Shown: piece by piece, positions 26,462 through 63,673 of the stretch
Position numbering within the stretch: the stretch's first letter is position 1
Layout: each line of letters starts with the position of its first letter
Origin: Phytophthora sp. 'mugwort'
Taxonomy: Eukaryota; Oomycota; Peronosporomycetes; Peronosporales; Peronosporaceae
Length of the DNA: 64,000 bases
Assembly (NCBI GenBank): GCA_033558025.1
Contig: JAUCEF010000003.1
Span: 2,692,001-2,756,000, forward strand
Direction: 5' to 3'
Program-made: the position numbers and the translations under genes
Notes under the pieces: model-generated
The model's input: only the letters and a program-made list of their open reading frames with translations
Told to the model about the DNA's origin: nothing
The model's database searches: none

Positions 26462-27148
26462 ATGTCTTTGCTCTTCCCAGAGGGCATAACGCATCTTACT
26501 TCGGAAGGGGCGGACGTGGTGAACGCGCGTCTGGAGGCGTTCTCAAGCTACGAGAATGCTCTGTTGGAGCACCTCCAGCAGAGGATGTCGGTGTCTGCAC
26601 CTACGTCGACGACATCGCAGGATGGGACCTCCCGGCCTAAACCGCTCATAGTGAGCGTCAAGACGTTCGAAGGAAAGGAGGGCAGAACCTCATGTTGTGG
26701 ATCCGTGAGATTGAAATGGCGATGGGATCGACCATCCTCCGTACTGAGCAACAGCGCGTGGCGCTAGCGATCTCGAAGCTCGGTGGCCGAGCACGAGAAT
26801 GGGCACTCACGTGCGGCACGTCGGTGGACGCGGCCTTTCCGAGATGGGAAGAGCTGAACTCCAGTTTTCGCAAGTGTTTGCTCCGCCTAAGCAGCGTATC
26901 GCGTGAGATCACGCTTTTTGAGTACCCGCCAGGGTAAGAAGCACTTGGTGGACTTCGTCCAGGGGTTGCCAACTCTGATCGACTGCATGGCGGTTGAACC
27001 TCTGCCAGAGGCAGTGACTCTGATAGTCTTTATGGAGGGCCTCCGCACCTGCGTGGCCAGGACGGAAGTCTTCCGCACTCACACTTCCTCTTTTGAAGAG
27101 GCCGTGAGATTGGCGTTGAACGCCGATGTGGTGGAGGGGATCCACTGA
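26462..27148 (+). pseudogene. Ty3/gypsy gag fragment (element D)
   Basis: Three overlapping frames give one gag-like protein. They are MSLLFPEGITHLTSEGADVV with a helix, then LIVSVKTFEGKEG, LMLWIREIEMAMGS, AISKLGGRAREWALTCG and HLVDFVQGLPTLID. The last reads LPEAVTLIVFMEGLRT...EAVRLALNAD. The order is that of a Retrotrans_gag capsid. Two frameshifts occur, near 26,690 and 26,900. It is cut off at about 27,125-27,148 where the U unit begins, so the rest of element D is missing. It belongs to a different family from A, B and C. Confidence 0.75.
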
Positions 27149-28013
27149 AATTCAGTAGGATCTCAACTCTCACGCACTGCGGCCAGACACCGACTAACGG
27201 AGGGGGTACTCCGACGGCCGTGTTGTTGCGGAGTGGTTCACCTTGTGTACCCGTCGGCGGGCTAGTACTGCTCTTTCGTTGACACGAGATGCGCACTTGG
27301 TGGGCCTTGGACGTCCTTGTGGGGACTTGGGGGGGGGATCTGCGCGGGTATTCCTGCGCACGAGATCCGGTGTTGGTTTGATCTTGAGCTCTTGCGTAGT
27401 CTTGTGAATCCGTAATAGAAATACGTGATCCGGAGTTGTTCCTTCTTGAGGGTGGCCTTGCTCCTTATCGCAGTGTCCTTGTTCCTTTACGATGCTTGCC
27501 GCTTCCAATAGCGGGATCTTGAGGGGGATTGAGAAGCCAAAGGGCGAGCGCGACTGGCCAAGCTATCCAGGGGCTGCCACGTGTGCAGGAAGATCGCCAA
27601 AGTTTAGACTTAGTCTATGTATGTGGCCAATAGAAATCCCCTATACTATAAGCAAGTCTGTCTTCCAGTGCAAATTCGGTTCTGATTTATACCTTAGCCT
27701 ATCTACCTTCGGATCCCATCCCAACACCTATCCTTCGGACTACTTATAACCCAGGATCCCATCTCTGACCTATTCCTGGCCACTCATCTCCACTCTACCT
27801 CCCTTTAGCTACGGATCTTTAACCCGGTGTGCATTAAACGGATCGGATCTAGTACCTAGACCTGACTCCACGGGACGGGTCCAGATCCGTACTATATACA
27901 GACCAGGCGTGTCGCATGGTCCGGATCCATCACCTTGACGCTGTTATGGCTGCTGCTGGCGACGCGGATCCTCCAGCTACCGGTCAACTTCCATCTCATC
28001 CGGATCTGCAATA
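27125..28013 (+). repeat. terminal unit U, copy 1 (LTR-like, next to element A)
   Basis: About 890 bp is repeated at 50,881-51,769 with a few percent difference, from gtggtggag.ggatcc to ggatctgcaatacc. The part at 27,480-27,690 shares ordered motifs (cttgccgcttcc..tagcgggatcttg; tgcaaattcg.ttctgat) with the 3' end of the right-hand element B at 61,580-61,860 in the same orientation, so this part behaves as an LTR. The left part (27,125-27,290), read on the minus strand, resembles the ORF0-gag junction of element A (ccgacgggtacacaaggtga). U is therefore composite. Confidence 0.6.
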
Positions 28014-28114
28014 CCACAGCTGACACGTTGTGGCCACCGCGCAACGGTAACACACCGTGTCACGTGATCCACAATTCAACCCACTGTCATCAACACAGAT
28101 CAAGCATCCCCACC

Positions 28115-29643
28115 ATGTCATCCGCCCGCCGCGCTCATGATACTGACGCCACGCCTCGCGCTGCCGTATTCGTCGGGAACGGGGTGCTCCGGACGCCCCT
28201 CTTCCATGTGCACACTGTTATCACGCGCCGTCGGATCCTTCAGCGACGGCAACTCCGGTGGTACTGGATCTGGATCCGCTGCGAGCCGCGGTAATGTCGA
28301 TCCACACCTTCGCTGGTGCCTACGACGAGCTGCTGGCCAAGCATCAGCAAGCCCTGCGGGATATGGTTGCTGCGCGTCGCCACAACGAAGAACTCCACAC
28401 GTTGGCCAAGCCCAACTGGACGACTGCGCGCTCATTCGTGGACATCGTCCAGCACCACTACGACGTTATCCAGGGCCAACTTCGTCAAGTCACGCACTTT
28501 GAAGCCGAACCGCGCCAAGAAGCTGACTGTCTCCGCGTGGAGGTCCAGGATTTCGGCGATCTGCGGGCGCGCTACGCCTTGCTAGAAGAAATCTGCACGG
28601 AGACGTACACCCGCCTGCAAGACTATGCCCTCAGTCTGGAGCGTCCCTTATCCGACCATAGCAGTGCCCGCGCCAGCCGATCCGCCCAGGGCTGCCCCTT
28701 CCCTTGCGCAGGATCTGCGGGATGAAGCGACCGGGTGAGGCAGTGATCCACCGACCTCGAGCAGCAATGTCTAACCGCTCGATCCGAGCGTGACACGGCG
28801 TTCAGAGGTCTTTCTCACCTTCAGAATGGCCAAGCAGATCTTCAGTGTAGCCACGAGCAGCGGAAGCAGCATGTCCGTGATTTGGAACGTGAAGCTCAGC
28901 GACTGCGGGAAGAACTGCACCAAATGCACCAACAGCTCGACGGATCGGTTCCCGCGGCAGATCTGCATGCTGCACGGATCGAGCTGCACATCCGAGATGA
29001 GCTGATCCTCGGGCTAGAGGGTTTTCTTGACAAGGCTGAGCATCGCCGTGCGGATCTTCACAGGGTTTACGATCATACCGTGGGCAAGCTAGATGCTGCC
29101 CAGGAAGAGATCGAGCGCCTGAAGCGCTCGCTGGGGACAGCTTACCGAGATCACGCGCGTACCGAAGATTCGCTGCACCAAACGCAAGACCAACTCCGTA
29201 ACCTCCGCATGGACGACAGGACACTCGAAGCTGCACGCGACACGATCGCTCAGGAACTCAAGAGGACCCAGAGTCAGGTGACTTGTGCGAACACCAAGAT
29301 CTGCGCCGGCGCTCAAGTTCGGCGAGATCTGGTGTTTGCGGCGGCCCAAGTGACTCAGGTCACTAGCGAACGCGATCAGGCGCGCCTGGATCTCGAAAAT
29401 GCAATGCAGGAAGGGCAGAAATATTTCAAGGCCCAGAGAGATCTCCTTGGGCAGGTCTCCGACATGCAGCAAGTGTACTTGCTGGTCCGCCAAGATCCCG
29501 ATCGACTCCGCGGTCAGCATGCGCTTCTGTCGCAAGATCACCACGGCCTCCTCGGCAAACACGACTCGGCCGTCATGGAGCGGGACAGCTCTCGACAACT
29601 TAGCGTCGATCGCCTCGGCGCGGAACTCATCGGTTGCACGTAG
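28115..29643 (+). pseudogene. ORF0, long coiled-coil protein upstream of gag
   Basis: From the ATG at 28,115 the first ~45 codons lie in one frame, and the body lies in another from about 28,258. The body is one frame to 29,643, interrupted by TGA at 28,723 and 28,744. It encodes long Glu/Arg/Gln heptad-like helices (LRARYALLEEICTETYTRL, REAQRLREELHQMHQ, DAAQEEIERLKRSL, RTEDSLHQTQDQLRNLR). No catalytic motif is visible. The spacing (about 230 bases before the gag ATG) and matching orientation suggest a structural or assembly protein of the element. The homologous part of element B is lost. It is not a shadow frame: the protein is regular over 400 residues. Confidence 0.6.
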
Positions 29644-29873
29644 TGGCGGCAGCGAAGCCAAGACTTCCGCGCTGCTCTACGTCCCCACGTCCCGCCTGGA
29701 TGTTCAAGACTTTACATCGCTGCATCCTTCGGAGCCCCAAGAGAGCAGATCCAGCCCACCGACGGGTACACAAGGTGAGACCAAGTTCAGCTGATTCACG
29801 GATCATAGGGTAACCCCCAGTTGGTAAGCGGATCGGGTTTTAAGCATATTTTGACCGATCCCGCTACGCCACA

Positions 29874-31380
29874 ATGGTGCGCGTGCCCGGATCTCTTGGT
29901 GATTCAGGATTTCACCGTGAGTCCACAGAAGAAATTGTAAACGTGAAGATTGAACAAGGGCATCAAGCGCCGTCGGAGATCGGATCGACGGCGATGTCGC
30001 TGAATGAAGCGAGATCCGCAGATCGGCAGAGCCCTGGGAGGAGCTCTGTCGACGGAAGAGAGGCAGATCCGGATCCGGCAGAAAAGCCTCGGATTCCTCC
30101 CCAGGTCCCTTCGGGGACCACCGCAGATCTCGATTCACATCGAGATCTGCCAAGCGAGACAGGAAAGGTGAAGCCTGAACCTTACTCGTTCGCTACTGCC
30201 GTAGCTACAAGATCGGTGCTGAAGAAGAAGAACAACAACATTACGAAGAAGAAACTGAAGGCCCCGGAGTCGTAGACGGAAGACCAGACTCAGATGTCCA
30301 CAGCGATCTGGACTGAAGATGCCCTGGAGATCATATACCACCGGAAGACGCTGCGTGATTATTAATCCACAATCCGGTGATGACGATCATGCTGGTGCGC
30401 CAGATCGGGGACTTGAAGGGCTCGATAGGGAGGTCAAAATAGCCGTCGAACAAGCTGGACGCTGTGAAGACACTGCTCCAGCTAATGAAGGAAGCCGGCC
30501 TAGTGGCAGGCGCTTTTAATGCCGACGATCTCTTCAATATATAATCTGGATGTGATCCGATCCACGACTCAAGACCTGATCGAGACGCTGAGGCCAAGTT
30601 CTGCCGCGATCAAGGCCCTCCAGTCACGCCGGAGGTCAGACTGGGTCGTCTCACTACGCATCGGCCACCTCGGAGCCGGACTCAGACAGCTCGACCGGCC
30701 CGCAACGGATGCAGTTAGGCCCCTCGGGCGCGGCCCTACTGCGATCACGCTTCAAGACGTCCGATCAGACATCTCTAGCGTCAGATCAGCGAAGGAAGCT
30801 GCTTCCATCCGCGACCCGAGAGAGGATCGCGGATCCGCCATACGCGCCGAAGGGCCAGTTGGAATCGTATTTCCTAACAACCATGACTCGCTTTGTGGAG
30901 GAACAACGTGTGATCACTGCACTCAAGAAGCCAGTTCAGAAGGCTCATTTGGGATCACAAGACGTGGACATGGAATCGATAGGATCGCCGCGGCACCAGC
31001 CGTCCCTCGGTGAATATGATCCAGACGATCTGGATATCCCAAGTGGGACGTATAGTGGTCGTCACGGCCGCAACCGGATCGGGAGGCGCCTCGCTGACGC
31101 AACGCGTCCGATTTTCAGCGATCTCATACTTAAAAGAGTTTACCGGCAAGGATCAAGATGAAGACCGAGCCAGAGCGTGGGTCAGTAAGGTCAAATCGGC
31201 GTTCCTGCGAGATCAGGCTTCAGACGAAAAGAAATGTCTGAACTTCTCCAATCTCCTCGCCGGACCGGCCAAAAACTGGTACCGACAACTCAGCCGATCG
31301 ACCCAAAACAAGTGAAGCGATCTGCTTCGCAGCTTTCAGACGCAATATTGCGGTCTGGGCGTCTCATTTGCATGCAGTAG
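29874..31380 (+). pseudogene. gag of element A
   Basis: The frame at 29,874-30,275 starts MVRVPGSLGDSGF, matching gag of element B (MVRVTGSLGDAGF), and ends in a Lys/Asn-rich stretch. In A the junction that is an ATGA overlap in B is fused into one frame. The following part is scattered over frames. The capsid-like end is well kept at 31,082-31,315 (FTGKDQDEDRARAWVSKVKS, AGPAKNWYRQLS) and ends in a TGA where B has Trp (QNK* versus RSKW). The next frame supplies FQTQYCGLG. Confidence 0.8.
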
Positions 31381-31499
31381 AATATCGTCGATCGGATGTC
31401 ATGGTGATGTTAGATCTCCTTCCAGAAGAATCTCGAGGGTATTGGAAACATCATGCGCCGCGAATGTGGTTTCGACAAGCGAAAGCGACAGGCAAGATC

Positions 31500-32771
31500 A
31501 ACAATGACAAGGCGATCTTACTTTAAATACTGGTGCTGAGGTGTCCATTCTGGATACCGCCTTTGCTCGTAAGTTTGGGTGCTATATCGACATGAGTCAG
31601 AGCCAAGCGTGTGTGGGGATCGGTGAAAATTTTGTATGTCACGAATGGAAGAACGCGGATCAAGATCACGTTAGCAGGATCGCTGGTGTAATTTTTTCGA
31701 TATATGGGTTGGAGATCTTGCTGGGCAAGACGCGATCCTGGGCATGGACTTTATGATCCCTGCTGTGATCAGGCTAGATCTGGTCGATGGGTCAATTTGT
31801 CTGCCGGACGAGATCCGGATCCAACTCAATGGACGCCGACAGCTCTGCAATGACAAGGCGAAAGTGGTGACGTCAATATCAGCATCTCCAGGTTGAGGTT
31901 GGGGGATCGATCGAGTTACCGCTCCGCTTACGTGCATCTGCAGATCGCGAGAAACTATGGGTTACACGCGGAGATCGATGAGTGCCGACGGTGACAACGG
32001 GGCCAGGGAAAACACAGTATCTGTTGTTAACGAAAATCAGCAAAAGTCGACTGATCCTCCAACGGGATGTACGGATCGCGATGTGGTTAGCAGGAGATCG
32101 CGTTCCCCGCTTGTCAAGTTTCGTGTCGATCGGACGCGTCAATATACGGGGTTGCAGAATCTAGCGTTCCAAGCGACGACGGAGGCACTCCCTCCGGAAA
32201 TGGATGGATCGGACCCTGGACCCGCTGTAGAACGGCCAGAATATGCCACGCCACGTGCAATACTACTAGAGTCCCGATTTTCGATAACGGAGCTGTCATG
32301 GCTACACCGCCTACCGCGGTTAGCCGATCTGGCGTTGCAACCCCCGATCCCTCAAGAAGAGAGAAGGATACATCGAGATCACCGCGTGTGGCGTCGCTCA
32401 AGGTGGAAGGTGGTGAGGAGGAGCCTGATCCAGCTACGGCGGTCGCCCAAAACTGACACCCCGACTGTAAGTCAGGCTGACGAGTCATGATGGCGGCAGA
32501 TCAGGAAGGACAAATCGAGCCGCGGTCGGATCTTGGAACGACCGATTTACCGGGTGAGGTGGATCAGATATCGCCCGAAAATGTTTCGGAGGGCGAGAAG
32601 GTACAACACGGAGATAGATCATCGGACCTGCCTGAAGATCGGACACGAAATCACGTAGATCGACCCAGTCTGACTAACCCCGATCGCCATGAAGATGATG
32701 ACCCAATTAGAAACGATTTGAGCTATCATCACGAAGGAGAGGAGATGAAGGCGGAAGACGTGGACAGATAG
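31500..32771 (+). pseudogene. protease and linker of element A
   Basis: The retropepsin block reads LNTGAEVSILDTAF. The catalytic DTGA is NTGA here, with the Asn codon at 31,526-31,528, so the active-site Asp is gone. KFGCYIDMSQSQACVGIGE and, in other frames, LGMDFM-like and LPDEIRIQL segments match element B. A long acidic linker toward RT follows in shifting frames (31,957-32,771). No zinc knuckle is clearly preserved. Confidence 0.7.
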
Positions 32772-32833
32772 TTAGCGATGCTGCCCGAGGTCAAGATTGC
32801 TACGACGGAAGAAGTGACGATCGAGGTATTCAA

Positions 32834-33994
32834 GTGGGGGATCCAACATATAACACCCCTGAAGAGATCGATCTACTTCGACAGATGATCTGGAAGAGAC
32901 GACACCTTCTGATCGGCAAAGGCAACGCGCTGCCTCCGGCTGCAAGGGGCGTTGTATGCGATGTCGATGTAGGAGGGTGCGAAGCTTGTGGCGCAGCGAG
33001 TACGGAAGGTGGCGCCGCGCTTCAGGGAGAAGGTATCGGATCTGATCAAGGGACTGTTAGCAGTCAAGATCATCCAGCATTCGATTTCTCCATGGGCATT
33101 TCCGATCGTGATCATCATTAGGAAGAACTGAGTGGATATACGGTTGTGCATCGACTACCGGTTGGTGAACGATCTGACACGACTAATGCTCTACCCGATG
33201 CCACTGATTTACGATCTGTTGGAAGATCTGGACAAAGTGCTAGGTTATTGTTCATTAACATGTCGAGTGGATTCTGGGTGGTCCAGATGGCCGATCGAGC
33301 TCGCGCGATCTCGGCCTTCATCACCCCTTTCGGGTTATTGGAGTGGAATATAATACCATTCGGACTCGAGAACGCGCTGCAGATTTATCAACGGCTGGTG
33401 GACAACGCTCTGTATGGATTCATGAAGATCTCGAAATCCGAACCTATAGGGCGACGCACGGATGTGTTTGATGCAGGAGAACCCGAAGATCCCGGCAAAC
33501 CTTCAGTTCTGGGACGTAGATCATATATCGACGACATCCTAATCACTGCCGGGACTTGGGATCAACTATACGATCGAGTGGAACGCCTACTGGATGCCTG
33601 TGACAAATGGAACTTGTCCATCAGGTCGTCAAGATTTCTGGGGACGCCGAAAAGTCGATTACCTAGGGCATCTGTGTCGATCGAAGGCCTGGAGGCACAT
33701 CCAAAAGACGTGAAAGGGTTGACCGACTTGCCTTTCCCGAAGTCACTCAGATCGATGCAGTCGTTCCTGGGCAGTCTGAATTATTATAGCCGATTCGTCG
33801 AGGACTATGCAATTTATGCTGCAGTATTGTACGATTTGGGTGAAGTGGACTTTAACGAGCTGATGAAACGTCGAGATCTCCGTCTAAGTATCGACGAAAC
33901 GCTTCCCGATCTTGATGTCCCTGATCTAGACGGATCCGGCGATTCTCCACCTGATCAATCGAAGACGGGCCTGAGTATAGCGGATGAAGGGTGA
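32834..33994 (+). pseudogene. reverse transcriptase of element A
   Basis: N-terminal pieces (IGKGNALPPAARGVVCDVDV; DIRLCIDYRLVNDLTRLMLY) are followed by a frameshift at the first catalytic Asp. Element B has CSLDMASGFW, but A lacks one base there (ttattgttcattaacatg). From there the frame at 33,146-33,994 continues with MSSGFWVVQMADRARAISAF, TPFGLLEWN and the catalytic YIDD (SYIDDILITAGTWDQ near 33,527). The thumb/connection part (FPKSLRSMQSFLGSLNYYSRF) is well conserved. Confidence 0.85.
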
Positions 33995-34330
33995 ATTCGG
34001 GCATACCGATCCTATAACAAATTGAAGGAGAAGATCGCCGCCACTCCGATCTTGCGTCATTTCGATCCAGATCGTCAACCTGTGGTAGTTGTTTACGCCA
34101 GTGAATGGGCGATCTCGGCTGCTCTGATGGAAGAACACGATAGCGTGTATCACCCAGTGATGTTCGCAAGTCGTACGTTGAAGTCGAATGAACTCAACTA
34201 AGTGTTGGCCTTGTAGAGGATCTTAGATCTGAACTACAACATGTTGGTTGGACGACATATCCGACTCCTGACCAGACACTCGACGCTGCATGGCTCTTCA
34301 GATCGCAGGGTATCCAGGGACGATTAGATC
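33995..34330 (+). pseudogene. first RNase H of element A (degenerate)
   Basis: The block ATPILRHFDPDRQPVVVVYAS EWAISAAL corresponds to the Ty3/gypsy RNase H that follows RT. The catalytic Asp of the usual TDAS motif is Tyr (VVYAS). Element B shows the same change, so the loss is ancestral to both. This fits a domain reduced to a connection role while a second RNase H takes over. Confidence 0.7.
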
Positions 34331-34509
34331 AATGGGCTGCACTCCTGTCGCCATGGACGCTAGAGATTGAGAAGTGTACCAAGGGAGAAGATGAGATCTT
34401 GGGGCGATCGCCGCCAGTATTACACCTTGGTCCAAGGTGGACGAAGCTTTGATCGCAATCGCAGCCAGGAAGGAGCCACGCCGTCAGATGCAAGTACCGA
34501 TCCCAGTAA

Positions 34510-34917
34510 TAGGCACGGATGAAGAGCTGTTGGTGATGAATTTGACGGATCTGCACGAGATAAGCGAGGCGGTGGAGCCTATAGTGCAGTTTTGTAAAAT
34601 TTAACTGAGTGAACAGTTTGGAAGGCCCGATCCGGTTATGCTGAGGATCGGACTGTGAACGAGGCAGATTACAATGGACTCCTGCTGTGTTTTGACTTGT
34701 TGGAAGGGATGAGCAGGGACGTTTGGTGAGTTGCGGTGATTCAAATCTGGTGATCAGACAAGTACGAGGCGAGATCGACTGCAAGACACCCGGATTGACG
34801 CTGTTGGGGGAGAAGGCCCTGGATCGGCTTAAAGTCTTGCCAGATCACGAACTGTTACACTGGAATGCTAGTGCGGACAGTTGGCTAGCGCTGCGTTACA
34901 GCGGTAGCAAGGAGTGA
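34510..34917 (+). pseudogene. second (cellular-type) RNase H of element A
   Basis: Joining frames gives FDGSARDKRGGGAYSAV, NEADYNGLLLCFDLL, CGDSNLVIRQVRGEIDCK and WNASADSWLAL. This is the D-E-D-D layout of a plant/archaeal-type RNase H. The Glu position reads Asp here (NEADY; NEAEY in element B). It lies between the degenerate RNase H and the integrase, as in dual-RNase H Ty3/gypsy elements. Frameshifts break it. Confidence 0.8.
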
Positions 34918-35062
34918 TCATCAACGAGGTGGAGGCGTATCAGGATCTGGTCACGCTGAATCGTTAGATGAGATCTTAATGATCAGATAGGAGGACACCG
35001 TGGTGCGAGTCTCGCCAGTAGCTACCCGATCAGGGACCAGATCCGTGTAACAACCGACCGTT

Positions 35063-36580
35063 TTGGACGAAGGTTTTGTGAGAGATCTCCGTGCCGATCG
35101 TATCCGACAGACCCACGAGGAAGAAGTGTGGATATCAGGTGTGAAGAAGTATCTTACTGAAGATGTGACCGATCTCACACAAGATCAGGCTAGACTGTGT
35201 GGCAAACTAGCGTCGGACTATGACGTCGACGACAATGATCTGCTATTATACTGTCCGCCTACCAAGGGATCGGAAGTAGATCGTGACGGACTGATGAGGC
35301 TAGTCGCGCCTGAGGCACTCACCTTGATATCTTGTAACACTATCACGCGAGCGTTGACGGTGGACATCAAGGGGTTGGCCGTACCTATCAACGGATCAGG
35401 GATCATTTCCACCGGAGAGGTTTATATCGCAGGGTGTGCAGCGATATGTGGGTGAATGTGTAGACTGCGAAACTGGAAAGGGTCATCCCACGATCAGAGG
35501 AGAATCGCCCGGGAAGCTCCAGGTAACATATCCTATTCAGATCATTGCAATGGATCACATACCCTCGCTACCGAGGTCCTTCAAGTGTGTGTTTTCCGGA
35601 AATTTGGTGCTAGCGAGGCGATCCGCCACGATCGAGAACCCGGGTTCATGTCTGACTTCTTCCGAGCGTATAACAAGATCCTCGGACAGCAACAGAGAGT
35701 GACGATGGCTTATCGACCGCAAGCAAACGGAATAGCGGAACGGATGGTACATATCATACTCCAGCTTTGACGATGCATGCTCAAGATCTAAACCATCAGG
35801 ATTGAGATGAGTACGCGAGGACTGACGTTTGCAATCAATACGGCCCAAGATCGAGTACGAGGGAATACACCGTTCTACCTAGTATACGGATGGGACCCCA
35901 GATCGGCGTTGGAAGCCACCATACCTTTGGGCAGTACTTGCACCCGAGATCAAAGATCCTATGAGATGGAGGTATCAGATCCATCGCTAATACACAACGG
36001 CAAGGGAACAAGTCAACGTCAAGCTGCGGGAGGCGATCTCAGATCGCTCAGATCGGCATAATGACGAGGTCGATCGGCATCAGATCGGAAGCGGATCACA
36101 AGTCTGTCTGTATCTGGATCGCGTGAAGGAAGGATATGCGCGTAAGCTAGCACATCTGTGGCATGGTCCTTTTCGAGTCGCGGAGAAGATCAACGAGTAC
36201 TCACTGCGCCTCGAGATCGCCGGAACAGAGTATCGGCTCTTCCCAATTGTGCACGTGTCCAAATTGAAGTTGGTCAAGGAATTCCCAGATAGGTCACAGA
36301 TCAAGTTGACTGTACCAATCTCGGATCGACTAGATTTTGGTGAAACCCTGCTGCCCGAAGATAACTGGACGCCAGATCTAGAGGCAGAGAATACGAAGTG
36401 GAGAAGATCACTGATCTGAGGACAGGTAGAAGAACTCGGTATGGACGGATCTATCGGGAATTTCTGGTGCATTGGAAAGGATATGCAGACCCCAGCTGGG
36501 TAGATGAAGCCGATCTCAACTACGGAGCACTCTTTCACGATTTCCTTTGGGGACAGGCTAACGGAATTGTTTCGGTATGA
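35063..36580 (+). pseudogene. integrase and chromodomain of element A
   Basis: The zinc-binding part is split between frames and ends in VGECVDCETGKGHPTIRGE. The core keeps the first Asp (AMDHIPSLP), the second (RHDREPGFMSDFFRAY) and the Glu (YRPQANGIAERM). About 90 bases between the first two are deleted compared with element B. After more stops come VKEGYARKLAHLWHGPFRV and a C-terminal chromodomain (YGRIYREFLVHWKGYADPSW VDEADLN) that ends at 36,580. The 3' end of this frame overlaps the antisense frame by about 20 bases. Confidence 0.85.
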
Positions 36581-39500
36581 AGCAGTCCCACAAGGAATGG
36601 TGGGATCGAGGGGATTGCGGCGAGTTGGTCACCGCGATGACGGATCGGAAGAAGGATCTATGGGAAGGCCATAGCTCGGAGGAAACGGGTGATGTATGTG
36701 ACGTTATGCATGCAAATCTGCATGAATTTTCGAGAAATTGAGGAAGGAAATCCGGATCGGGTAAGCTCCAGATGAAGTAGTAGGACGCATGAAGACCCAA
36801 TGCAGTCAAGACGGAAATAAGTAAGTATGGATGAAAAGAGGAATGACTGAGATGAATGCATGGAGACCTACCCATGAACGGCGGCTTCTCACAAAATTGT
36901 CGGGATGGGAGACCAGTGCCAAGTAGAGAACGAACCGAATCAAGAGTCGAATTTGTTCCGAAGTCGACCGATCCGGTACGCCAAATTTTCCATAGGCAGA
37001 TCACGAAATTGGTTGCGCCAGGGATTGGCGGTGTCAGCTTTACGAAGGGCCTCCAGAAGGTCACCAGGTTCCGCTCGGTGAGACGATTGGGGTCAGCAAG
37101 GTTGTCTGCCCGAGATGCACGACCTGGATACCAAGTCCCATCGTCCGTCGTGGTCGGAAGATGAAGGAATAAATGATCGAGTAATAGATCCAGATCGGCC
37201 CACCGCTCACGCATCATCAGAGGAAATGAACGGAGCAACGCTCGCCAGCTGTCGCCCGCTCGGATCCGCCTCTGACGACGGTCATGATGGTACTGCTCCA
37301 AAACTGGATCACGACATTTTTCCGCGGTCATCGGGAGATAAAGAGTCGTCTCCCAATAAGCCTGGAGATGTCGTCGTTCGATAGCGAGATAAAAATCCGC
37401 GACCTGGACGAGAGTGGTATTCGATCTGCTATGGAGCGGCAGATCGAAGGTCAGGGTCTCCTCCGAGTTATCCAACATCTCCCAGGGTCGAGCGGCGATC
37501 AAGGCCGTGATGTTTGGACCAGTAATCCAGTTGTCCAGATGGTCGGTACCGGCCCTGGGGGCGCGGACCCCTCACACGCGCCGCGGGAACAGCCAGCCAG
37601 AAGGGATCGGGAGCCAGGCGGTCAAGGTGCGCCATTTTTGGCGGCTACTTGAAGCTGACTCAAAGTCATCGCCGGCCACGGATCGATCTCGGCCTGAGTA
37701 AGAGCACGAGGCTGATCGTATCTATGTAGTGAGATCGATGCTGGGAATAGCGGCGGGACCAATGGCCGCAAAGGAGATCCAGGAGAGGGAGGACTTCCGA
37801 CATCGGATCGAGCGGAACCCTCGGATCCAAAAGGAGAAGCTGGCGGACTTGGAGAACTAGGCCCACCTTGAACGGCCGATCCCGTTTGAGCAGCCGCGGA
37901 ATTGCCGCGATCCGATTGTCCAGGACTCGCCGGTTGACGAGTCGCAGGTGGCTCGTCAGATTCGTGTAGAGAGCCCTCGGGTGTGCCAGGATCAGCAATC
38001 TCGGTCGGTTGAGAAGCATCGCCGCCCGAGAGTGTGCCAGATCGGCGACGAACTTCAGAACGAGATCGGGACAAAGCAACCAACGCTTGATCATCGCTGT
38101 CGTCTTCTTCGTCTTCTTCACTTTCACCCGATTCTGGCAGTCCAACGGACGGGGGAGCCTCCGTACGAGACACAACTGAAGCCTTGTTCGCTGTCAATTC
38201 CCGGACCATCGTCATCGATCTCTTATTGAGGCTCGGATTCAACTAAGGGAGACACTCCAGCCGAGGCCGAGCTGCCTGAACCTTGTGTCGGGGCAGTCGG
38301 AACTATCTGACGGCCAGGAGGAAGAGCGGACCGACTACGCAACGGACACTTAGACGAAAGACCAGGTGGAGAAGGCGAAGTCGATCGGCTGGGTTCCCGC
38401 TTCCCAGATCGAGGGGGACCCGATCCATTGGGGTTCACTGGCAGTACCACCTCGGCGAGACGCTCGGTGACCAGATCGACACCCGTGCCGATTTCGTCTC
38501 GGGTCTGACGCAGCCGATGATAAGCGGTCTGAAGATCTGCGATCTGGTTTTCCAGCGCACGAATAGTCCGCCGAGATGTACCCAGCTCCACATCTGTATC
38601 TCAGAATTGTCAACGGAGAGTTAGGTTTACTCAGCTAACTCGACAGACAAATGGTCATTATACTTACGGGCGTCAGCAAATTCCGTCGCAGCTGTATCCC
38701 GATCGCGGATCGCAGCTGCGAGATCAGACAGTAAAGGAGATTGACCACGTTCCAGAGTATCAACTTCAGCTTGAAGGCGATCTCGATCGAGTTGGAGCCG
38801 ATTCCGTTCCGTGCGAAGTTTAGCACGCTCGCGGATGAGTTCGCCAGCAGTAGAGGTGCCGGCCGATCGACTCGTGGATGTCGGACCGGCTATCGGAGCG
38901 GAAGAAACGACCCGACCGGCCTGGTCTGGGCTTGGCGGAGTTCGTTCTCCAGCCGCGCCACATTTGCTAAAGCTGCGTCCATCTCCACGTGGAGCCGAGC
39001 TGACTGAGTCCCGTCGGTGTCCGATCGGGAGCACTTCGCTGTCGCTTAATCCAGAGCAGCTCGAGAGGAGTCCAGGCTAACGCGGTAAGAGTCAAGATCG
39101 ACACGATTCTCATCTAGTTCTCTCTGCTAAGTGATGATGCGGTCGCGTAAGTCGTCGACCTCTTCCTCGCGGAGCTCCAGACGACGATACGCAAGTTCGT
39201 CTCGGCGAGACTCAGCTCCGAGAGTTCCGGCTGAACACTGGAGAGATGACGCTCCACGTCTTGGATCTCAGCGGCCTGCTGACGAAGGTGATCGCGGAGA
39301 TGACGAACGATCGACTGATCCCCCTGGGCTGGGAGAGTGTTGTCGATCTCAGCCCGGAGCCTCCGGATCTCTTCACCTTGGTCATGTCGGAATTGTTCCA
39401 AGGCACGCTGATCGTCAGACATCTTGGCTATGACACGATCCTGGTGCATGCGATCTCGCAGAAGATCATCACGAGTACCTCGCGTACGACGGGGCTCATC

Positions 39501-39647
39501 TTCCAGGTAGTCCACCTGACGCGCCACGACTTGAGTCATCGAGTCAACGAGAGCATGCGAGGCGGCAAAACGACGGGACCTGACGCTGTGAGACGAAATG
39601 GGCGGCGTTCGGTCTTTGTCAGAGGCATCCGAGTGGTGATCGCTCAT
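36558..39647 (-). pseudogene. antisense ORF (aORF) of element A
   Basis: Minus-strand frames at 39,647-39,114, 39,034-38,627, 38,591-38,223, 38,242-37,622 and 37,502-36,558 read as one protein broken by frameshifts. The N-terminal half is coiled coil (RRLRAEIDNTLPAQGDQ, RLELREEEVDDLRDR). The middle is Ser/Pro-rich with an acidic run (ESEEDEEDDSDDQALVA). The C-terminal ~310 residues match the aORF of element B, including RSRSEVRRR, LQAYWET, DLDLLLDHLF and TWYPGR. It converges on the end of pol. Its conservation at protein level between diverged elements argues for a real gene of the element. The function is unknown. Confidence 0.7.
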
Positions 39648-40312
39648 AGAATTGGAGTAGATGGCTTGTAGAGGCGAAGATTTAGAAGTGTGACCGGAGT
39701 GTGGTCGCTATACGGCAACGACTTCGGACAGGGGGCGGTTGTGGAGAAGCGTCCACCAAGAATATCAGATCCGTAAGGGATGGCCACATCGGTGTGAAAG
39801 GCGGCCCTAGCTGTGAAAAAGAGGGGGCGATCGAGCCGGATCGAGATACGAGGTAAAGGGGGACCGACGTTCGACTTAATCTGGGGTGCAAGAGGATGCT
39901 TCGATGACGAGAAAGGAAACCAGGTCGGGCAACCACCCAACACAGATCGGTTATGCTGTGATCACCCGACCGATCGAGGAGCGCGTGGATATTCGGGAGC
40001 CGGGTCGAGGAGATCAGGCAGATCGAGCCGATCGACCACGGGACCTAGCAGATCGGTCCGATCCGGCGATACAGGTTGGCAGATCGGGCCGATTTGGTAC
40101 TCAAGGTTTAGATGATCAGGTTGATCCGGCGTCCACATGTCCGCCTACATGCCGCCGCCCGAGATCGGGCAGATCGGGTTGATCGGTTTTCGCCGATCGG
40201 CATACAGGTTCCGACATCCTCGATCTGTAGATCGACGAACACGTTCAGACATCCGCGATCTGGCAGATTGGGATTCGATCAGCAATCATCCTTGGGGATG
40301 TGCAAGCGTGAA
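39648..40312. other. element A / element B boundary, GATC-rich
   Basis: No gene is supported. The part at 39,950-40,312, read on the minus strand, resembles 62,250-62,450 at perhaps 85% (gatgattgctgatcga, cagatcgcggatgtc, gaacctgtatgccg), with many gatcgg/cagatc repeats. It is therefore the outer flank of the palindrome's left arm and diverges far more than the arms themselves. Confidence 0.5.
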
Positions 40313-40706
40313 TGGTTCGTATTGAGTGGTTGAAGATGGGCAAGATTCAGGAGATTCAGGTGGTACGATATAGGGTTCAGAATGGGAGGATAGGACAAGA
40401 AAAGGATAAACAGCAATCAGACTCGAATTTGCATTGGACAACTTAGGCGGTTTTCGAATACCGTGGGACTGGAACTAATTGCCCCCCCCTTCCAAGGTGT
40501 CGACCAGTCCAAGGTAGCAGATTTAGTGTCGTGGTGATCGGATCGGATCGGATATTAGCCGACCCTCCCCCACACTAGCGAACTTCTGCTCCAGCGCATA
40601 CCTCGATCGATCGGCATTCAGTGCTTGACCGACGATCGCTTCGACTCTCAACTCGCAAGATCCCGCTAAAGGAAGCGGCAAGCAACTCAAGGAAAAGAAA
40701 GGAACA

Positions 40707-42134
40707 ATGCCACACGGCAACCTGGGCCTCGATTCAAGTCCAGGCCCCCGATCGAAGGTCAGGTCTAATTCCGTGTCTCGCAGTGACCAGGCTTCTTCCA
40801 AGAGGCCCTTGAGTCCACCCTCTTCTCTTCGCCGCGAGGATCCGAGCCCGCCGAAGAAGGTGCCTCCTTCCTCATCCCCTGCGGTGGATGGCGCAACTGC
40901 CTCCGGATCGGCCTCGAAGGTGCCTTCAGTCCAATCAGGATCCTCCTTGGATCTCGCTGTTGACGCCGCGGCTGAGGTCGGTGATGAAGACTACGAGTTC
41001 CCCGGCATAGTATCTGGATCTAGCTCCGATCCCGGTTCCATCTCTAGTAGTAGTGGATCTGACGCCGCGCTCATCGACTCGGACGCGATCTTCGACAACT
41101 CCGACGACGACGAACTCTAAATGGCTCTGGCGCGATCCCGATCCGACGCCCGTCGACGCAGCTTTTTCGTGGAGATCTCTGGTGGCGAGAGATTTCAGGC
41201 TACGCTCATCGTGGTCGACCAAGATCCGAACTCTGCCGAAACGGAGGAAGAGGTGGAAGGTGCGACTCAGGCGGCCGACACACCCAATCCGACTCTTCTG
41301 GCCGTTGCACCCGCCACGGATCCTGCTTCCCAGCTGCTCGGTCCTGCTGATATTTTTCTCCCCGGCTTCCATCAGCCGCGGGTCGTGATCGCGGAAGAGG
41401 TAGCACCTTGGGATCCTTCCCAGATTAGTGTGCTTACCCTCGACACCCTACCGCCCCGGATCCTGATCGACAACCGGGTGCTCTCGGCCGGGTGGATGTT
41501 CCTTGAGCGGGCCAGTCGCGGGGGACAACTGGATCCTTCTCGTTATGTTTCGCGCCTGCTCACGAAGGAGGACATCATGGCTCTGTACAGGGAAGAGCCG
41601 TGGAAGGCCCTCGACGTACCAGACCTGAAGCCGCTGATATTCGATCTGGCCAGATCCGCCGAAGTAGCAGCGCTCGCCACGAGCTACCGGGCCTACGAGG
41701 AGGATTACCGTCAGGCCTACTGGGAAGCTCGCACTCCTTCCCGATCCTCAAGTCCGAGCGCGACGGCACACGCGTGGTTCGTGCCCTTCTACCGTGGACG
41801 CAAGAACCTGAGCTTGCACGCGCGCCAAGTTCTGGAATCTGCAAGGCCAGATCTTCGAAAGGCTCGCCAGATGGGATGTTGCGACCTGGACCTGCTGTTA
41901 GATCCGGTGTTCACGCACTTCCCTTTGCAGTCCGAAGACACGACGTGGTTCCCCGGGCGCGAGGCGGTCGCAGAGGGACGGGATCCGCCCCAAGATCTGA
42001 TCGCGGCTCTCGCGGACTGTGACAGGAGCGCCCCGTGGCTCAATTACTTCCGCACGGATCCGACTTCTCATCCGTCTCGCCAGATCAGCCGGATCCGCAT
42101 GAAATTTTCTCCGTCCGCTCCGGATCATGAGTAG
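40707..42134 (+). pseudogene. antisense ORF (aORF) of element B, left copy
   Basis: A single plus-strand frame of 475 codons lies opposite to pol, with one in-frame TAA at 41,118-41,120 directly followed by ATG. Element A reads through this point (SDDQALVALSRSR against SDDDEL*MALARSR), so the stop is a lesion. The first 137 residues are disordered: Ser/Pro-rich, then acidic. The last 337 form a folded-looking domain with DLARSAEVAALATSYRAYEE, RQAYWEART, DLDLLLDPVF and TTWFPGRE. No known family is recognised. The ATG lies in a leader (ctaaaggaagcggcaagca..aaggaaca) that resembles part of U. The frame ends ~480 bases from the end of pol. Confidence 0.7.
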
Positions 42135-42611
42135 TCTACGTCGTACGTCATTAACTTAGTAGCGGTAGTGGTTCGTCTTGCATGGAGTAATCCATTCAAT
42201 ATCAGTATTGCTTCGGCTAATTTGTCTTGCGTATGCTGTATCTTGATCGTTCTTAGGTCTTCCGTTCATCGTCGGATCCGATATCCTTCGGATCCGAGAT
42301 CCTTGTAGCGAGCTTAGTTATTTCACCAGATCCGGATCTCCTGGTCACATGTACACTCACTCCCCTTTCCATCTTTAGGCTTGCAGCCTCCCTGCATCCT
42401 CTCTCGCTTCATCTGCCGTGGCGACCAATTCACCAGACGGAACCCCCTCCTTCTTCTCTCATGGCCTTCCCGCGGATCTTCTACCAACTTCGTCACGTCC
42501 ACCACCAAATAGTGAACGCGGATCCTCCTCCTTCACACTTGCCGCCTTTCTGCAAGCCTTCAACTTCAGTACCGCCTGCAGCACCAGCTTGCTGCCGCGG
42601 CTTCCACCACT

Positions 42612-44285
42612 TAAGCTTCCTCGTACGACTGCACCGACTGGAAACGACTCTTCTTGGCCCGATCCTGCAGGAACTCACGCAATAGCACCCCACAGTTCAG
42701 ATCCGCCTCGTCAACACAGATGGGTTTGTCCTAGCCTCGCCAGTGTACCTTAAACTCGCGCAGTGATCGTCCATAACGTGTTCGACGACCCGACCTCATG
42801 TCGCTGATCTTCTCGACTTCGTACTCCCCTTCTTCTAGCTCTCGATCCCAGCTGTCTTCAGGTAACAGCGCTTCGTCGAAGTCGAGACGATACGCCTCAT
42901 CGACGGCCAAATGTGTTGTTGGTCGATCGGGAAATGAGAAAACATTCCCCGATCGACTAACAACACAGTTGGCCCTCACAGGCTTCAACTTAGACGCATG
43001 CACCACCGGAAAAAGGTGGTAATCTGTCCCGGCTGTCTCCAGTCAAGCAGCGAGAGGTTGCACCGTCTCCAACACTCGGAAGGTACCATGCCATATGCGC
43101 TAGCTTCCGCGCGTATCCTTCCTTGACTCGATCCAGATATAGCCACACCCGAGTGCCGGCCTCGATCCGATGCGGATCCACGCTATCATTGTGGCGTTCG
43201 ACCCGATCCGTAATAGCCTTCTTCAGCTTCGCGTTCACGTCCGCTCTCACCTGCCGGTAATAGCGCTGGCAACGCCATTGGCGTGGATCCCGATCTCGGC
43301 GTCTCGTGCTGCCTAGCGGGAGAGTTGCCTCTAGCGTCGTGCGTGGATCCCAACCGTGCCCAAGATAAAACGGGGTGTCACCTCGGATCCGATCATGTGC
43401 CGTGTTGATAGCAAACGTCAGGCGCTCTGCGTACTTGTCCCAGTCGCGCTGGTTCTCGTCCTCGACATACATCTTGATGGATCTCGTCACCGTCTGCACC
43501 ATGCGTTCCGCAGTCCCGTTCGCCTGAGGCCTATAAGTCATGGTGTTTCGCTGTCTCTGTCCCAGGATCTGCTTGAATGCCCTGAAGAAGTCAGACATGA
43601 AACCAGGCTCCCTGTCATGCCGGATTACCTCGCTCGCACCGAAGCGTCGGAACACACAGTCCTCGTAGGATTCCGCGATCGTTTGGGCTGTCCGGGACGC
43701 ACTCGCCTTGGCAATGACGTAACCTGTGAACAGATTTACCCAGATTAGGAGTCCCGTGTGGCTTTTGTACGACTTGGGCAGCGAGGGGATGTGATCCATC
43801 GCTATGACCTGGAAAGGGTAGGTGGCCTGGATATTGCCGGGTTACTCACCGCGTATGGTCGGTAGCCCCTTGCCGGTCTGGCAATCCACGCATTTACCTA
43901 CGAACCGCTCTACGCTCCTGAAGAGTCCACGCCAATAGAAGTGATCCCGGATCCGCTGATATATTCGGCTGATCCCCTGATGACCGCCCTCCAGACTGAC
44001 GTGGTAGTGATGTAGCAGATCCTCGTGCAGCGTCTCGGGCACAGCCAGACGAAGCAGCCCGTCTCTCTCTTCCTCCACCTTCGCAGACGGCGCAGTAGTA
44101 GAGTAGGTCCTGTTCATCCATCGCATAGTCAGTCGCCACGTTGCTGCAACCCGAGCTTCGTCTTTTTCCAGATCCTTCACATCCCCTTGAAGGTACTTCT
44201 TGAGGTTCATGATCCACTTTTCTTCGTCCTGAGCTTGTCGGATTCGATCCACTCTCAGCTGGCGGACCGCCTCTTCTTGCAGCAC
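42612..44285 (-). pseudogene. integrase and chromodomain of element B, left copy
   Basis: The zinc-binding domain is complete (HHYHVSLEGGHQGI, then CVDCQTGKG). A TAA follows at GE*PGN, where A has Ser. The core keeps D, D and E: AMDHIPSLPK, RHDREPGFMSDFF and YRPQANGTAERM. A one-base shift near LAHM(A)WY disrupts the C-terminus, and the continuation HGTFRV...HASKLKPV has a TGA. The chromodomain reads YGRSLREFKVHWRGYKDKP and then VDEADLNCGVLLREFLQDR, ending SYEEA at about 42,612. All of these lesions are also in the right arm. Confidence 0.9.
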
Positions 44286-44417
44286 ACTGGGCTGGTGACC
44301 TTCCGGCGGGATCTAGTCGCCATGGCTGCAATGCGAAGCGTAGTATCCTCGGCAACGTGGTCAGGATCTTGGGTAGCCGATTCAGCGTCACCAGGTCCTT
44401 CCGTGTTTGGTTGTCCG

Positions 44418-44822
44418 TCACTTCTGCTCTCGCTGTAACGCTGCACTCGCCAGACTATCTGCGCTGGCGTTCCATGCTCGCTTGACATGAAGCAGGTCGT
44501 GATCCGGCCAGGATCTCAGACGGTGTAAAGCCCCTTGCCGCAACAACGTCAACGCGGGAGCTTTGCAGTCGATCTCGCCCTTCATCTGTCGGATCACCAA
44601 ATTGGAGTCCCCACAGATCACCAAACGTCCTCGATCAGTCATTCTAACAGATCAAAGCATAACAATAGTCCACCGTATTCCGCCTCATTGACCGTCATAT
44701 CTTCTGCCCGTATTGACTCCGCCTTGACCACGGTCCACTCGGGCAACTTCCACACGATGCGCTGAAGGCGCCTCCGCCGCGTTTGGCTCGGGCGGATCCG
44801 TCGAAACTAGCGAGCACGAGTT
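44418..44822 (-). pseudogene. second RNase H of element B, left copy
   Basis: The D-E-D-D set is complete: FDGSARAKRGGGAFSA, NEAEYGGLLLCFDLL, ICGDSNLVIRQMKGEIDCK and WNASADSLASAAL. One frameshift lies after GGGAFSA and a TGA follows CFDLLE, so it is not translated whole. The catalytic residues themselves are unchanged. It lies between the degenerate RNase H and the integrase. Confidence 0.85.
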
Positions 44823-45009: not shown

Positions 45010-46450
45010 GGTCCATTGTCCCGAGCCGCCCTTGGAGCCCTGTAGCGTGGAACAGCCAAGCCAACGTCGAGTGCCGCGTCAGGATCTTAATTGATCTGCC
45101 GACCAGCATCGAATAACCCAGATCCAGCATACGCAGCTACGCTAGCACTTCCTTCTCCACGACGCCGTACTTCAACTCGCTCGACTTCAACGTGCGGCTC
45201 GGGTACATCAGGGGCAAGAATGTGCCGTCGTGATCCTGCACCAGGGAGGCGGACACTGCCCACTCGCTGGCATAGACGATCAGCACTGGCTGTTTCTCCG
45301 GATCGAAGTGTCGGAGGATCGGGGTCGTCGCGATCTTGTTCTTCAGTGTGGAATACGCTGCTCTAGCTCCGATCCACTTCGGCTCTGACGCCTCCGGATC
45401 CTATCGAACTGGGGGTCCCCGCCTTCGAGGATCTCTCGGTCGATCTTCCCTTCGTTGACAGCGATCCTGCTCTAGCACGCATCGCGGAGAAATCCACTTC
45501 TCGCAGCTCGTACAACATCGACGCATACACCGCCATGTCTTCAATGAAGTGTCCGTAGTAGTTCAGACTACCCAAGAACGACTGCATAGACCGTAGAGAT
45601 TTCGGGAATGGCAGATTTACCCGCGCACTGAGATCCTTTGGATGAGCCTCCAAGCCTTCGATGAATACACGATGCCGGAGGTAATCTACCTTCTTCAGTC
45701 CGCAGACGCTCTTCGCGACACTGATCGAGATATTCCACTTGCCACAGGCGGCGAGCAGGAGCTTCACTCGTTCGCACAACTGATCCCAGGATCCGGCCGT
45801 AACAAGGATGTCATCGATGTAGAATCGACGCCCCAGTACGGAAGGTTCACCTACTTCTTCCGGATCTCCTCCTTCGAAGATGTCCGTTGAGGATCCTCGA
45901 TCCGCTGCTGATGGGATCCGCAAGATGCCGTACAGTGCGTTGTCGATCAGCTCTGGTAGATCTGTGGAACGTTCTTCAATCCAAATGGCACGCGGTTCCA
46001 CTCAAACAGGCCAAACGGCGTGGTGAATGCCGAGATGGCACGAGCACGATCCGTCATAGACACAACCCAGAAGCCACTCGCCATATCCAACGAGCAATAC
46101 CACAGCACCTTGTCTAGATCCTCGTGCAGATCATTGATCAGGGGCATCGAGTAAACCAACAGCTTGGTGAGACCGTTAATCAGGCGGTGATCAATACACA
46201 ACCTTATGTCCACACCATTCTTCTTGATGATCGCCACGATTGGTGATGCCCATGGAGACGTTGAGTGTCGTATGATCGTGGCTGACGCAGCCCCTTGATC
46301 GGATCCGATACCTTCTCGCGAAACTGGGGGAGATCTTTTGCAGACGTTGTGCGATTGGGGTGGCCTTTCCAACGTCGATGACACATACCACGCCTACAGC
46401 CGCAGGAGGCAGCGCGTTGCCCTTGCCGATCAATAAGTGCTGGTAGGACC
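45010..46450 (-). pseudogene. reverse transcriptase and first RNase H of element B, left copy
   Basis: RT starts near YQHLLIGKGNALPP. A frameshift leads into DIRLCIDHRLINGLTKLLVY, the first catalytic Asp (CSLDMASGFWVV) and TPFGLFEWN. A second one-base loss at QIYQ/LIDNAL leads into the catalytic YIDD (FYIDDILVTAGSWDQ) and FPKSLRSMQSFLGSLNYY. The RNase H that follows has VYASEWAVSASL, with Tyr in place of the first catalytic Asp, and a TAG after VVEKEVLA. The active residues of RT are intact but the frames are not. Confidence 0.9.
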
Positions 46451-49308: not shown

Positions 49309-50532
49309 CTATGCTACCGAGATTCCCAATCCGCAGTACTGCGTCTGGAAGCCCCTGAGCAAGTCACTCCACTTCGACCGTGTGGATCGGCTCAGCTGCC
49401 TGTACCAGTTCCTCGCGGGTCCGGTAAGCCGATCCGCGAATGTAAGGCATTTCTCTTCGTCTGTAGCTTGATCCCTCGTGAGTGCAGACTTGACATTGCT
49501 GATCCACCCTCGTGCACGCTCTTCGTCATGATCCTTGCCTGTGAATTTCTTCAGATCTGAGATGGCCGATATCCTGACACGTTGAACCGTCGACGATCCA
49601 GTCGGAACGACTGCTGCAGCTGTCGTAGCCGTGCGTCTCGTGGATCCCATGTCGAGATCATCCGGATCATACTCCCAGTGCAGCGGTGGTGATCTTGCGG
49701 TCCCACTGATTCCATGTCGACATCCTGCGATCCCGGACCGCGTGGGGACGGAATCAGTCGCGAAGCCCTGGCCTCTTGACGTTCGCTCAGGAAACGTGCC
49801 ATAGCCGCTTGGAAGTATGTCTCCCGGACCACTCGTCGGTTCCTGGGCCGGATCCGCTAACCGGATCCGGGCTTGCGACGGTCTCGTCGGACGCGGAGCC
49901 AGGATCTTATCTTCCAGAGTGCTAGCAGAAGGGGACGGCAGCATCGCGGCGCCGGCTGGCCCAAGTGACATCCGTCGCGGCTCCGATGAGCTGCTGGATC
50001 CGACTTCTGACGTAGCCGACGCGTACTGCGATGATCGTGTGTGGTACTCCGGCGACCTGGTGTACACCGCCTTGATGTCGGGCGACGAGACGTATCCGGC
50101 CTTGGTCTCGATTGCCGAGCTGTGCTCGGTCTTGATCTCGGGCGCTGCAGCTGCCGATCGATCGCCCAGAAAGGATTTCGACAGGTTGAAGAGTGACGCG
50201 GCCAAGATCCGGATCGTATCGGTGTCCAACTGGAACAGGTCGTCAGCGTCGAACGCTCCTGCCGTAAGGCCGGCCTCTTCCAGCATCCTCAGCAGGTCCA
50301 TCGCGGCGTCCAGCTTGTTTGTGGTTGACGACGGGGGCGACACAGGTCCGGTGAGAGATCCGAGCTGCAGGATCAGCATCACTGGGTCCTTGCGCAGGAA
50401 GTCGTTCAGCTCCGTACGCACGTACGCTGACTCCAGCTTAGATCGTGACCAGGTAGACTTCAATACAGCACGATTTTCGCTATCCGAGCCTGGTGCCTTG
50501 AATTTCTTCCGTGCGGCCTTCGTCTTCTTCAT
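49309..50532 (-). CDS. gag ORF2 (capsid) of element B, left copy, open
   Basis: A 407-codon frame with no stop is the longest intact gag in the window. The N-terminus is basic (KKTKAARKKFKAPG), followed by a helical region (DAAMDLLRMLEEAGLTAG). A Ser/Ala/Pro-rich middle comes next. The C-terminal capsid-like block has DLKKFTGKDHDEERARGWIS, TGPARNWYRQLS and FQTQYCGLG. Its ATG overlaps the stop of gag ORF1 as ATGA (50,529-50,532), a layout compatible with stop-start coupling. The frame ends before the zinc knuckle, so the full gag polyprotein would need another frame event. The right arm's copy is broken by a nonsense codon and an inversion. Confidence 0.75.
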   Translation of the reverse strand: MKKTKAARKKFKAPGSDSENRAVLKSTWSRSKLESAYVRTELNDFLRKDPVMLILQLGSLTGPVSPPSSTTNKLDAAMDLLRMLEEAGLTAGAFDADDLFQLDTDTIRILAASLFNLSKSFLGDRSAAAAPEIKTEHSSAIETKAGYVSSPDIKAVYTRSPEYHTRSSQYASATSEVGSSSSSEPRRMSLGPAGAAMLPSPSASTLEDKILAPRPTRPSQARIRLADPAQEPTSGPGDILPSGYGTFPERTSRGQGFATDSVPTRSGIAGCRHGISGTARSPPLHWEYDPDDLDMGSTRRTATTAAAVVPTGSSTVQRVRISAISDLKKFTGKDHDEERARGWISNVKSALTRDQATDEEKCLTFADRLTGPARNWYRQLSRSTRSKWSDLLRGFQTQYCGLGISVA

Positions 50533-50882: not shown

Positions 50883-51769
50883 TGTGGTGGAGTGGATCCG
50901 CTGAATTTCAGTAGGATCTCAACTAACACGCACTGCGCCCAGACACCGACTAACGGAGGGGGTACTCCGACGGCCGTGTTGTTGCGGAGTGGTTCACCTT
51001 GTGTACCCGTCGGCGGGCTAGTACTGCTCTTTCGTTGACACGAGATGCGCACTTGGTGGGCCTTGGACGTCCTTGTGGGGACTTGGGGGGGGGGAATCTG
51101 CGCGGGTATTCCTGCGCACGAGATCCGGTGTTGGTTTGATCTTGAGCTCTTGCGTAGTCTTGTGAATCCGTAATAGAAATACGTGATCCGGAGTTGTTCC
51201 TTCTTGAGGGTGGCCTTGCTCCTTATCGCAGTGTCCTTGTTCCTTTACGATGCTTGCCGCTTCCAATAGCGGGATCTTGAGGGGGATTGAGAAGCCAAAG
51301 GGCGAGCGCGACTGGCCAAGCTATCCAGGGGCTGCCACGTGTGCAGGAAGATCGCCAAAGTTTAGACTTAGTCTATGTATGTGGCCAATAGAAATCCCCT
51401 ATACTATAAGCAAGTCTGTCTTCCAGTGCAAATTCGGTTCTGATTTATACCTTAGCCTATCTACCTTCGGATCCCATCCCAACACCTATCCTTCGGACTA
51501 CTTATAACCCAGGATCCCATCTCTGACCTATTCCTGGCCACTCATCTCCACTCTACCTCCCTTTAGCTACGGATCTTTAACCCGGTGTGCATTAAACGGA
51601 TCGGATCTAGTACCTAGACCTGACTCCACGGGGTCCAGGATCCGTACCATATACAGACCAGGCGTGTCGCATGGTCCGAATCCATCACCCTGACGCTGTT
51701 ATAACTGCTGCTGGCGACGTGGATCCTCCAGCTCCCGGTCAACTTCCATCTCATCCGGATCTGCAATAC
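50881..51769 (+). repeat. terminal unit U, copy 2 (palindrome centre)
   Basis: This single copy of the ~890-bp unit separates the two arms. On its left it runs, on the minus strand, straight into the gag start of the left element. On its right it ends ctgcaatacc, exactly where copy 1 ends before element A. From there the right arm starts at about codon 20 of gag ORF1. Orientation of the LTR-like half agrees with the right arm, so U looks like the 5' LTR of the right copy, and the left copy lacks an LTR of its own. Confidence 0.7.
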
Positions 51770-51770
51770 C

Positions 51771-63670: not shown

Positions 63671-63673
63671 CTA

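Follow-up and report, generated by a model that had tools for sequence, protein, structure and literature searches.

In Ty3/gypsy elements of an 86.26-Mb Phytophthora assembly (154 contigs), the interval from pol to the 3' LTR holds a gene that is read against gag-pol. In diverged element lineages this gene occupies the same place and orientation, encodes a homologous protein, and bears the marks of purifying selection on its reading frame. It came to light in a window of 64,000 nucleotides (G000:C3:2692001-2756000; positions given below are those of the window), in which an initial annotation had noticed, in two diverged elements called A and B, a protein-coding remnant on the strand opposite pol that converges with pol at its chromodomain end, and such a remnant is indeed present in both. 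That the antisense gene is real is close to certain. The overall explanation favoured here, namely that the frame is a true accessory gene of Ty3/gypsy elements of Chronos-like type, with an inferred nuclear regulatory role, is quite probable, and the nuclear regulatory role, taken as a part in its own right, is put forward tentatively, as one that the protein may have.

Two nested elements and their antisense genes

Element B runs along the minus strand, from its 5' LTR at 50883..51774, which is followed in the sense direction by a primer-binding-site-like sequence, to its 3' LTR at 27127..28018 (892 bp, with TG...CA ends). The two LTRs are 97.7% identical to each other (27127..28018 against 50883-51773), and other genome copies of the B LTR reach at most 91% identity among the matches listed (40 of 403 candidates scored). 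Between the LTRs, and all on the minus strand, stand a gag at 49309..50532, with weak matches to PF03732 and PF19259 that are both under cut-off; a reverse transcriptase in two pieces at 45366..46393 (PF00078, one piece over cut-off and the other under it); a gypsy RNase H at 45140..45400 (PF17919, over cut-off); a second RNase H candidate at 44421..44651 (PF13456, 20.2 bits, E 5.9e-4, just under the 21.6 cut-off); an integrase at 42990..44312, with an H2C2 zinc finger at E 5e-18 and an rve core under cut-off; and a partial chromodomain at 42734..43042 (15.5 bits, under the 25.1 cut-off). Element A, 11.1 kb in size and read on the plus strand at 29647..40756, has a reverse transcriptase and a PF17919 RNase H over cut-off, and its pol ends in a plus-strand chromodomain at 36365..36577 (PF00385, E 2.5e-06, over cut-off); a PF13456 search of the A piece for a second RNase H gave no match. 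The order of reverse transcriptase, gypsy RNase H, second RNase H (a candidate here), integrase and chromodomain is that of the Chronos elements of oomycetes, which have been found in Peronosporales and Pythiales and were described for their capture of an additional RNase H and a chromodomain (Ustyantsev et al. 2017, PMC5348765). Judged by this domain layout, the elements in the window appear Chronos-like, and the chromodomain after the integrase, a Chronos feature, is present in both, over cut-off in A and partial and under cut-off in B.

Element A is nested within the antisense gene of B, since B-type sequence joins across the place of A in 28 of the 54 loci examined, some of which overlap. 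At these empty sites the sequence of 29637-29646 joins that of 40757-40764, the two overlapping by at most 2 bases or standing at most about 10 apart, and no target duplication is visible flanking A. Furthermore, A is circularly permuted, with one LTR in two pieces: seen against the copies L055 and L056, the 3' part of the LTR opens the element and the 5' part closes it. The 3' part (29647..29873, plus strand) matches L055 4569-4817, the match ending at CACA and being followed by a primer-binding-site-like sequence, and in L055:3789-4817 and L056:269-854 both LTR parts are adjacent, with about 21-26 nt between them. Given the adjoining LTR parts in these two copies and the lack of a flanking target duplication, A looks like a one-LTR circle that would have broken open within its LTR on returning to the genome. 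The primer-binding-site-like sequences after the 5' LTR ends of A (29874) and B (50882, minus strand) are near identical, with one base differing in the stretch compared.

The B antisense gene, on the plus strand, is split by A into codons 1-451 at 28294-29646 and a remainder at 40757-42134. Its start is taken as the ATG at 28294, 275 bp inward of the 3' LTR. The N-terminal half (28294..29646) encodes a coiled coil, contains 3 in-frame stops, has a tblastn match to the P. fragariae protein P0008, and adjoins the sequence from 40757 onward in uninterrupted copies. The C-terminal half (40757..42134) consists of a linker, one stop at 41118-41120, and then a C-terminal domain (CTD) of 337 open residues at 41121..42134. 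The frame first annotated in B, at 40707-42134, holds a real remnant of the gene, interrupted by that stop and preceded by 50 bases (40707-40756) that are LTR of A and lie outside B.

In A, a minus-strand frame at 39647-36558 had been taken for a large ORF, and it is not open, with 24 stops (the last included) in 1030 codons; the other five frames over the same stretch hold 25-42 stops, and the A remnant spreads over several frames. Three parts of the gene can be made out, all on the minus strand: an N-terminal coiled-coil-like part at 39114..39647, open for 177 aa, where all Pfam matches are sub-threshold and tblastn with B-type homologues gave no match; an acidic, Ser-rich middle part at 37622..38242 with an RSRSEVRRRS motif; and a decayed CTD in two frames at 36943..37631, with protein matches to the B-type homologues and profile. 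The roughly 300 C-terminal residues said to be alignable between A and B shrink to a protein match spanning about 190 residues in two frames, and the shared motifs cited alongside (RSRS.(V/A)RRR, QAYWE, DLDLLLD and TW(F/Y)PGR) are all present. Neither window copy of the gene is intact. The product would be roughly 900 residues long, with a coiled coil, a Ser-rich linker bearing basic NLS-like and acidic stretches, and a helical CTD. At E 1, Pfam offers no family for the B CTD or for the A piece, and the antisense product adds a protein family without a Pfam match.

Element B also has an inverted copy, B', about 1 kb away and 99.8% identical (40314-50825 against 51773-62252), in which a 296-bp pol-end segment (42436-42731) is relocated to 61957-62252 and the CTD recurs, inverted, at 60134..61144 on the minus strand. 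The pair arose by a recent inverted duplication or else reflects a fold-back in the assembly. Close, opposed pairs of LTRs or antisense genes also occur at G000:C9:2710117-2723236, C3:372881-374750 and C6:3011546-3014883, and a tRNA-Lys (TTT) gene lies at 63598-63671, just past the inverted copy.

Homologues in diverged lineages and their fixed position

A genome search with the 337-residue domain, proposed at the outset, returned at least 141 matches (119 of 201 candidates scored), which merged to 64 B-type loci. All protein homologues with a species name belong to Phytophthora rubi and P. fragariae: parts of the B antisense gene match proteins of 350-964 aa from these species (P0001, P0002 and P0004-P0008), and P0003, a 219-aa JGI protein, matches it as well. 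Homology between A and B is seen in the match of a 151-residue piece of A to a profile built from B together with P0001-P0007 (hhalign probability 98.9, E 2.5e-17, 144 columns). Searched against the genome in six frames, the same piece recovers the copy in B at E 3.5e-11, and its matches to B-type loci reach E 3.3e-18.

For a third type of element, three integrase-positive places with 41-43% integrase identity were taken. Two of them, L059 and L060, contain long antisense reading frames with common sequence, and the L059 protein has 81 genome matches, 55 of which were used and merged to 38 loci. The third place, L058, holds a weak relative (E 3.7e-4), which matches a bridging lineage at E 8.8e-30; this bridging lineage and another lineage match the third type at E 1.9e-7 and 5.4e-7. 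A first, narrower profile comparison of the third type with the B type was weak. Profile comparison of the two types gives a probability of 46-54% (P 1e-4 to 2e-4), the third type scoring 38.1, where 200 column shuffles reached at most 22.7 and 100 reversed rotations at most 14.7. The third-type CTD is probably a remote homologue of the B-type CTD, on sequence evidence that is good and less strong than that for A and B.

The position of the gene was compared with a list of 92 integrase loci, drawn from 99 of 168 matches (most weaker fragments left out; 143 of 1524 candidates scored). A listed integrase lies within 4 kb of 47 of the 64 B-type CTD loci, and none is listed for the other 17. In 46 of these 47 loci the two are convergent, i.e. 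on opposite strands with the integrase downstream, and in one they share a strand. For the A type, 23 of 42 DNA rows were used, with 19 short fragments left out, and 18 of the resulting loci are convergent, one overlaps by 40 bases, and four have no listed integrase match. The third type is convergent, 775-1166 bp downstream, for 11 of 18 hand-picked lower-identity integrase rows; the other seven have no third-type neighbour, and one of them (C16) has a convergent A-type match about 1 kb off. LTR rows (41 of 45 used, four short ones left out) provide 15 neighbours within 6 kb of a CTD locus, 13 of them in the same orientation and 1.9-2.05 kb upstream, and two in the opposite orientation.

These arrangements bear on a suggestion made with the initial annotation, that an unrelated element had entered A and B in separate events, and on the variant in which the insert was a captured host gene. 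Heavy nesting within the window would suit such a history, but homology together with fixed position excludes it, because a homologous protein is found in the same place and orientation in the B-, A- and third-type lineages, and separate insertions are extremely improbable.

Selection on the antisense frame

The antisense protein was under purifying selection while the elements were active. For the B-type CTD, 31 copies were kept from 41 aligned rows (near-duplicates and short rows left out), variants were binned by the number of copies sharing them, and the ratio of nonsilent to silent variants (N/S) was computed in all six frames. In the antisense frame, N/S falls from 1.20 for variants found in one copy to 0.87 (two copies), 0.45 (three to five) and 0.33 (six or more), whereas four other frames remain at about 1 or higher (1.02-2.02 for variants in at least six copies). 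Antisense-frame N/S also falls in the coil, from 1.07 to 0.30 (27 copies), and in the third type, from 0.97 to 0.21 (15 copies). Fisher tests of one-copy against shared variants give p values of 2e-9 (CTD), 4e-16 (coil) and 2e-12 (third type); in frame fwd1 the values are 0.91 (CTD) and 0.80 (coil), and 0.003 in the opposite direction for the third type. The A type, with 8 copies, has too few shared variants for an N/S comparison. As controls, the stretch 42135-42700 has its lowest N/S, 0.49, in the pol-end frame and 0.60 in one other frame, and the 274 bp before the ATG give scattered ratios from few sites, including 0.39 and 0.49. Pairwise dN/dS medians over 769 pairs are 0.52 in the antisense frame, 0.61 in the mirror frame, and 0.89, 0.90, 1.02 and 1.06 in the other four. 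A dN/dS near 1 had been named in advance as evidence against selection, and the antisense frame lies well away from it; the past selection supposed at that stage is borne out by the frame-specific test, and place and orientation recur across lineages.

The mirror frame, rev1, has an N/S of 0.49 for CTD variants shared by six or more copies (0.45 in the coil and 0.27 in the third type), as might be seen if the antisense frame were no more than the shadow of a gene coded in sense. Stop codons refute this: the sense frames of the CTD contain 3.1, 12.3 (rev1) and 8.7 stops per copy, where the antisense frame has 1.7, and the mirror frame contains 19.7 against 3.5 in the coil and 5.7 against 2.3 in the third type. 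Since the mirror frame has more stops per copy, its low N/S is ascribed to shared wobble positions, and a shadow has next to no likelihood. Because shared variants are mostly silent and single-copy variants neutral, selection on the antisense protein acted during the active phase and not afterwards, the simplest reading being that new insertions decay neutrally and that lineages still jumping kept the protein. Alternatively, the antisense transcript itself might be functional, through dsRNA or siRNA feedback, with the ORF incidental. Convergent pol and antisense genes could yield dsRNA, and in P. infestans LTR elements are matched by small RNAs of either sense (PMC3522703), but a frame-specific silent excess in shared variants needs protein-level selection. 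An incidental ORF is thus largely refuted and very improbable, and a functional transcript could act beside the protein.

Possible function and known antisense genes

A coiled coil is included in two of the eight homologues, P0007 and P0008; the best heptad contrast of P0008 is 0.76 against 0.50 +/- 0.07 in shuffles, and was reached by 0 of 100 shuffles. The same two proteins, and no others of the eight, have a bipartite basic NLS-like motif at the end of the coil; five of the remaining six begin downstream of its place, and P0002 covers the place yet is without it. Structure prediction, another early proposal, yielded a helical CTD at modest confidence (AlphaFold; mean pLDDT 59.3 and pTM 0.56 for P0003, mean pLDDT 35.2 for the window copy), and a fold search with the predicted CTD models gave no usable match.

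In the mechanism that we favour, a separate antisense mRNA would be made from a promoter in or beside the 3' LTR (an oomycete core-promoter consensus was not found in 27127-28500), and its protein would assemble as a coiled-coil oligomer and enter the nucleus. There it would serve as an accessory regulator of the element, perhaps tuning sense transcription or the steps that the pre-integration complex takes in the nucleus, as has been proposed for plant antisense ORFs (PMC7264820) and as HBZ of HTLV does. A coiled-coil rod and a helical domain would also fit a protein that is real but structural or env-like, for instance a particle or transport protein. Against this stand the placing of env-like genes among sense aORFs (PMC7264820) and the NLS-like basic clusters of P0007 and P0008, and we think a structural role unlikely.

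The plant elements Grande, RIRE2 and Retand belong to the Tat group. HBZ of HTLV-1 is an antisense gene for a nuclear protein, with a promoter in the 3' LTR and a coiled coil. Antisense ORFs (aORF-3R) lie between pol and the 3' LTR in Grande (gene23), RIRE2 and Retand, in the antisense direction, as does the gene described here; the plant aORF-3R occur in most copies of a family, and some have Smc-like stretches (PMC7264820, PMC11963269). HBZ is mentioned in PMC11963269, and its likeness to the present gene would be one of antisense arrangement, in a retrovirus, with no sequence relation claimed. Boty of Botrytis has an antisense ORF 3' of pol, an aORF-3R outside plants (PMC7264820), and is likened here by layout alone. 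Most Retand antisense ORFs encode TRP28 (PF04195) (PMC7264820, PMC11963269). At E 1, PF04195 had no match in the genome searched here, and 14 control genomes likewise had none over cut-off, so that there is no positive control. Unlike that of Retand, the domain described here is not TRP28/PF04195, and host and element lineage are distant. The parallel with plant Tat elements drawn in the initial annotation holds for layout; PF04195 gave no match in the genome and Pfam none for the domain, and, as far as tested, the protein shows no relation.

The main text of the Chronos paper describes gag and pol ORFs and uses the word 'antisense' zero times (PMC5348765). The initial annotation knew of no description of such a gene in oomycetes, and none was found in the open-access literature searched; subscription journals or Repbase notes may contain one. 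Most antisense accessory genes described so far in LTR retrotransposons come from plants, and what they do is an open question (PMC7264820). The plant Tat group also has a dual RNase H (PMC5348765), and it is conceivable, though doubtful, that Tat in plants and Chronos in oomycetes independently made the same three gains, namely a further RNase H of archaeal-like type, an extended 3' region, and an antisense gene whose product, built from unrelated sequence, is a coiled-coil protein of the nucleus. If so, the antisense protein would be functionally tied to the dual RNase H or to the nuclear phase, and a retrovirus-like accessory system would have evolved repeatedly. The selected oomycete case is an independent replicate, in a lineage that already parallels plant Tat in RNase H, and it makes testable whether antisense accessory proteins go with a particular retrotransposon life cycle.
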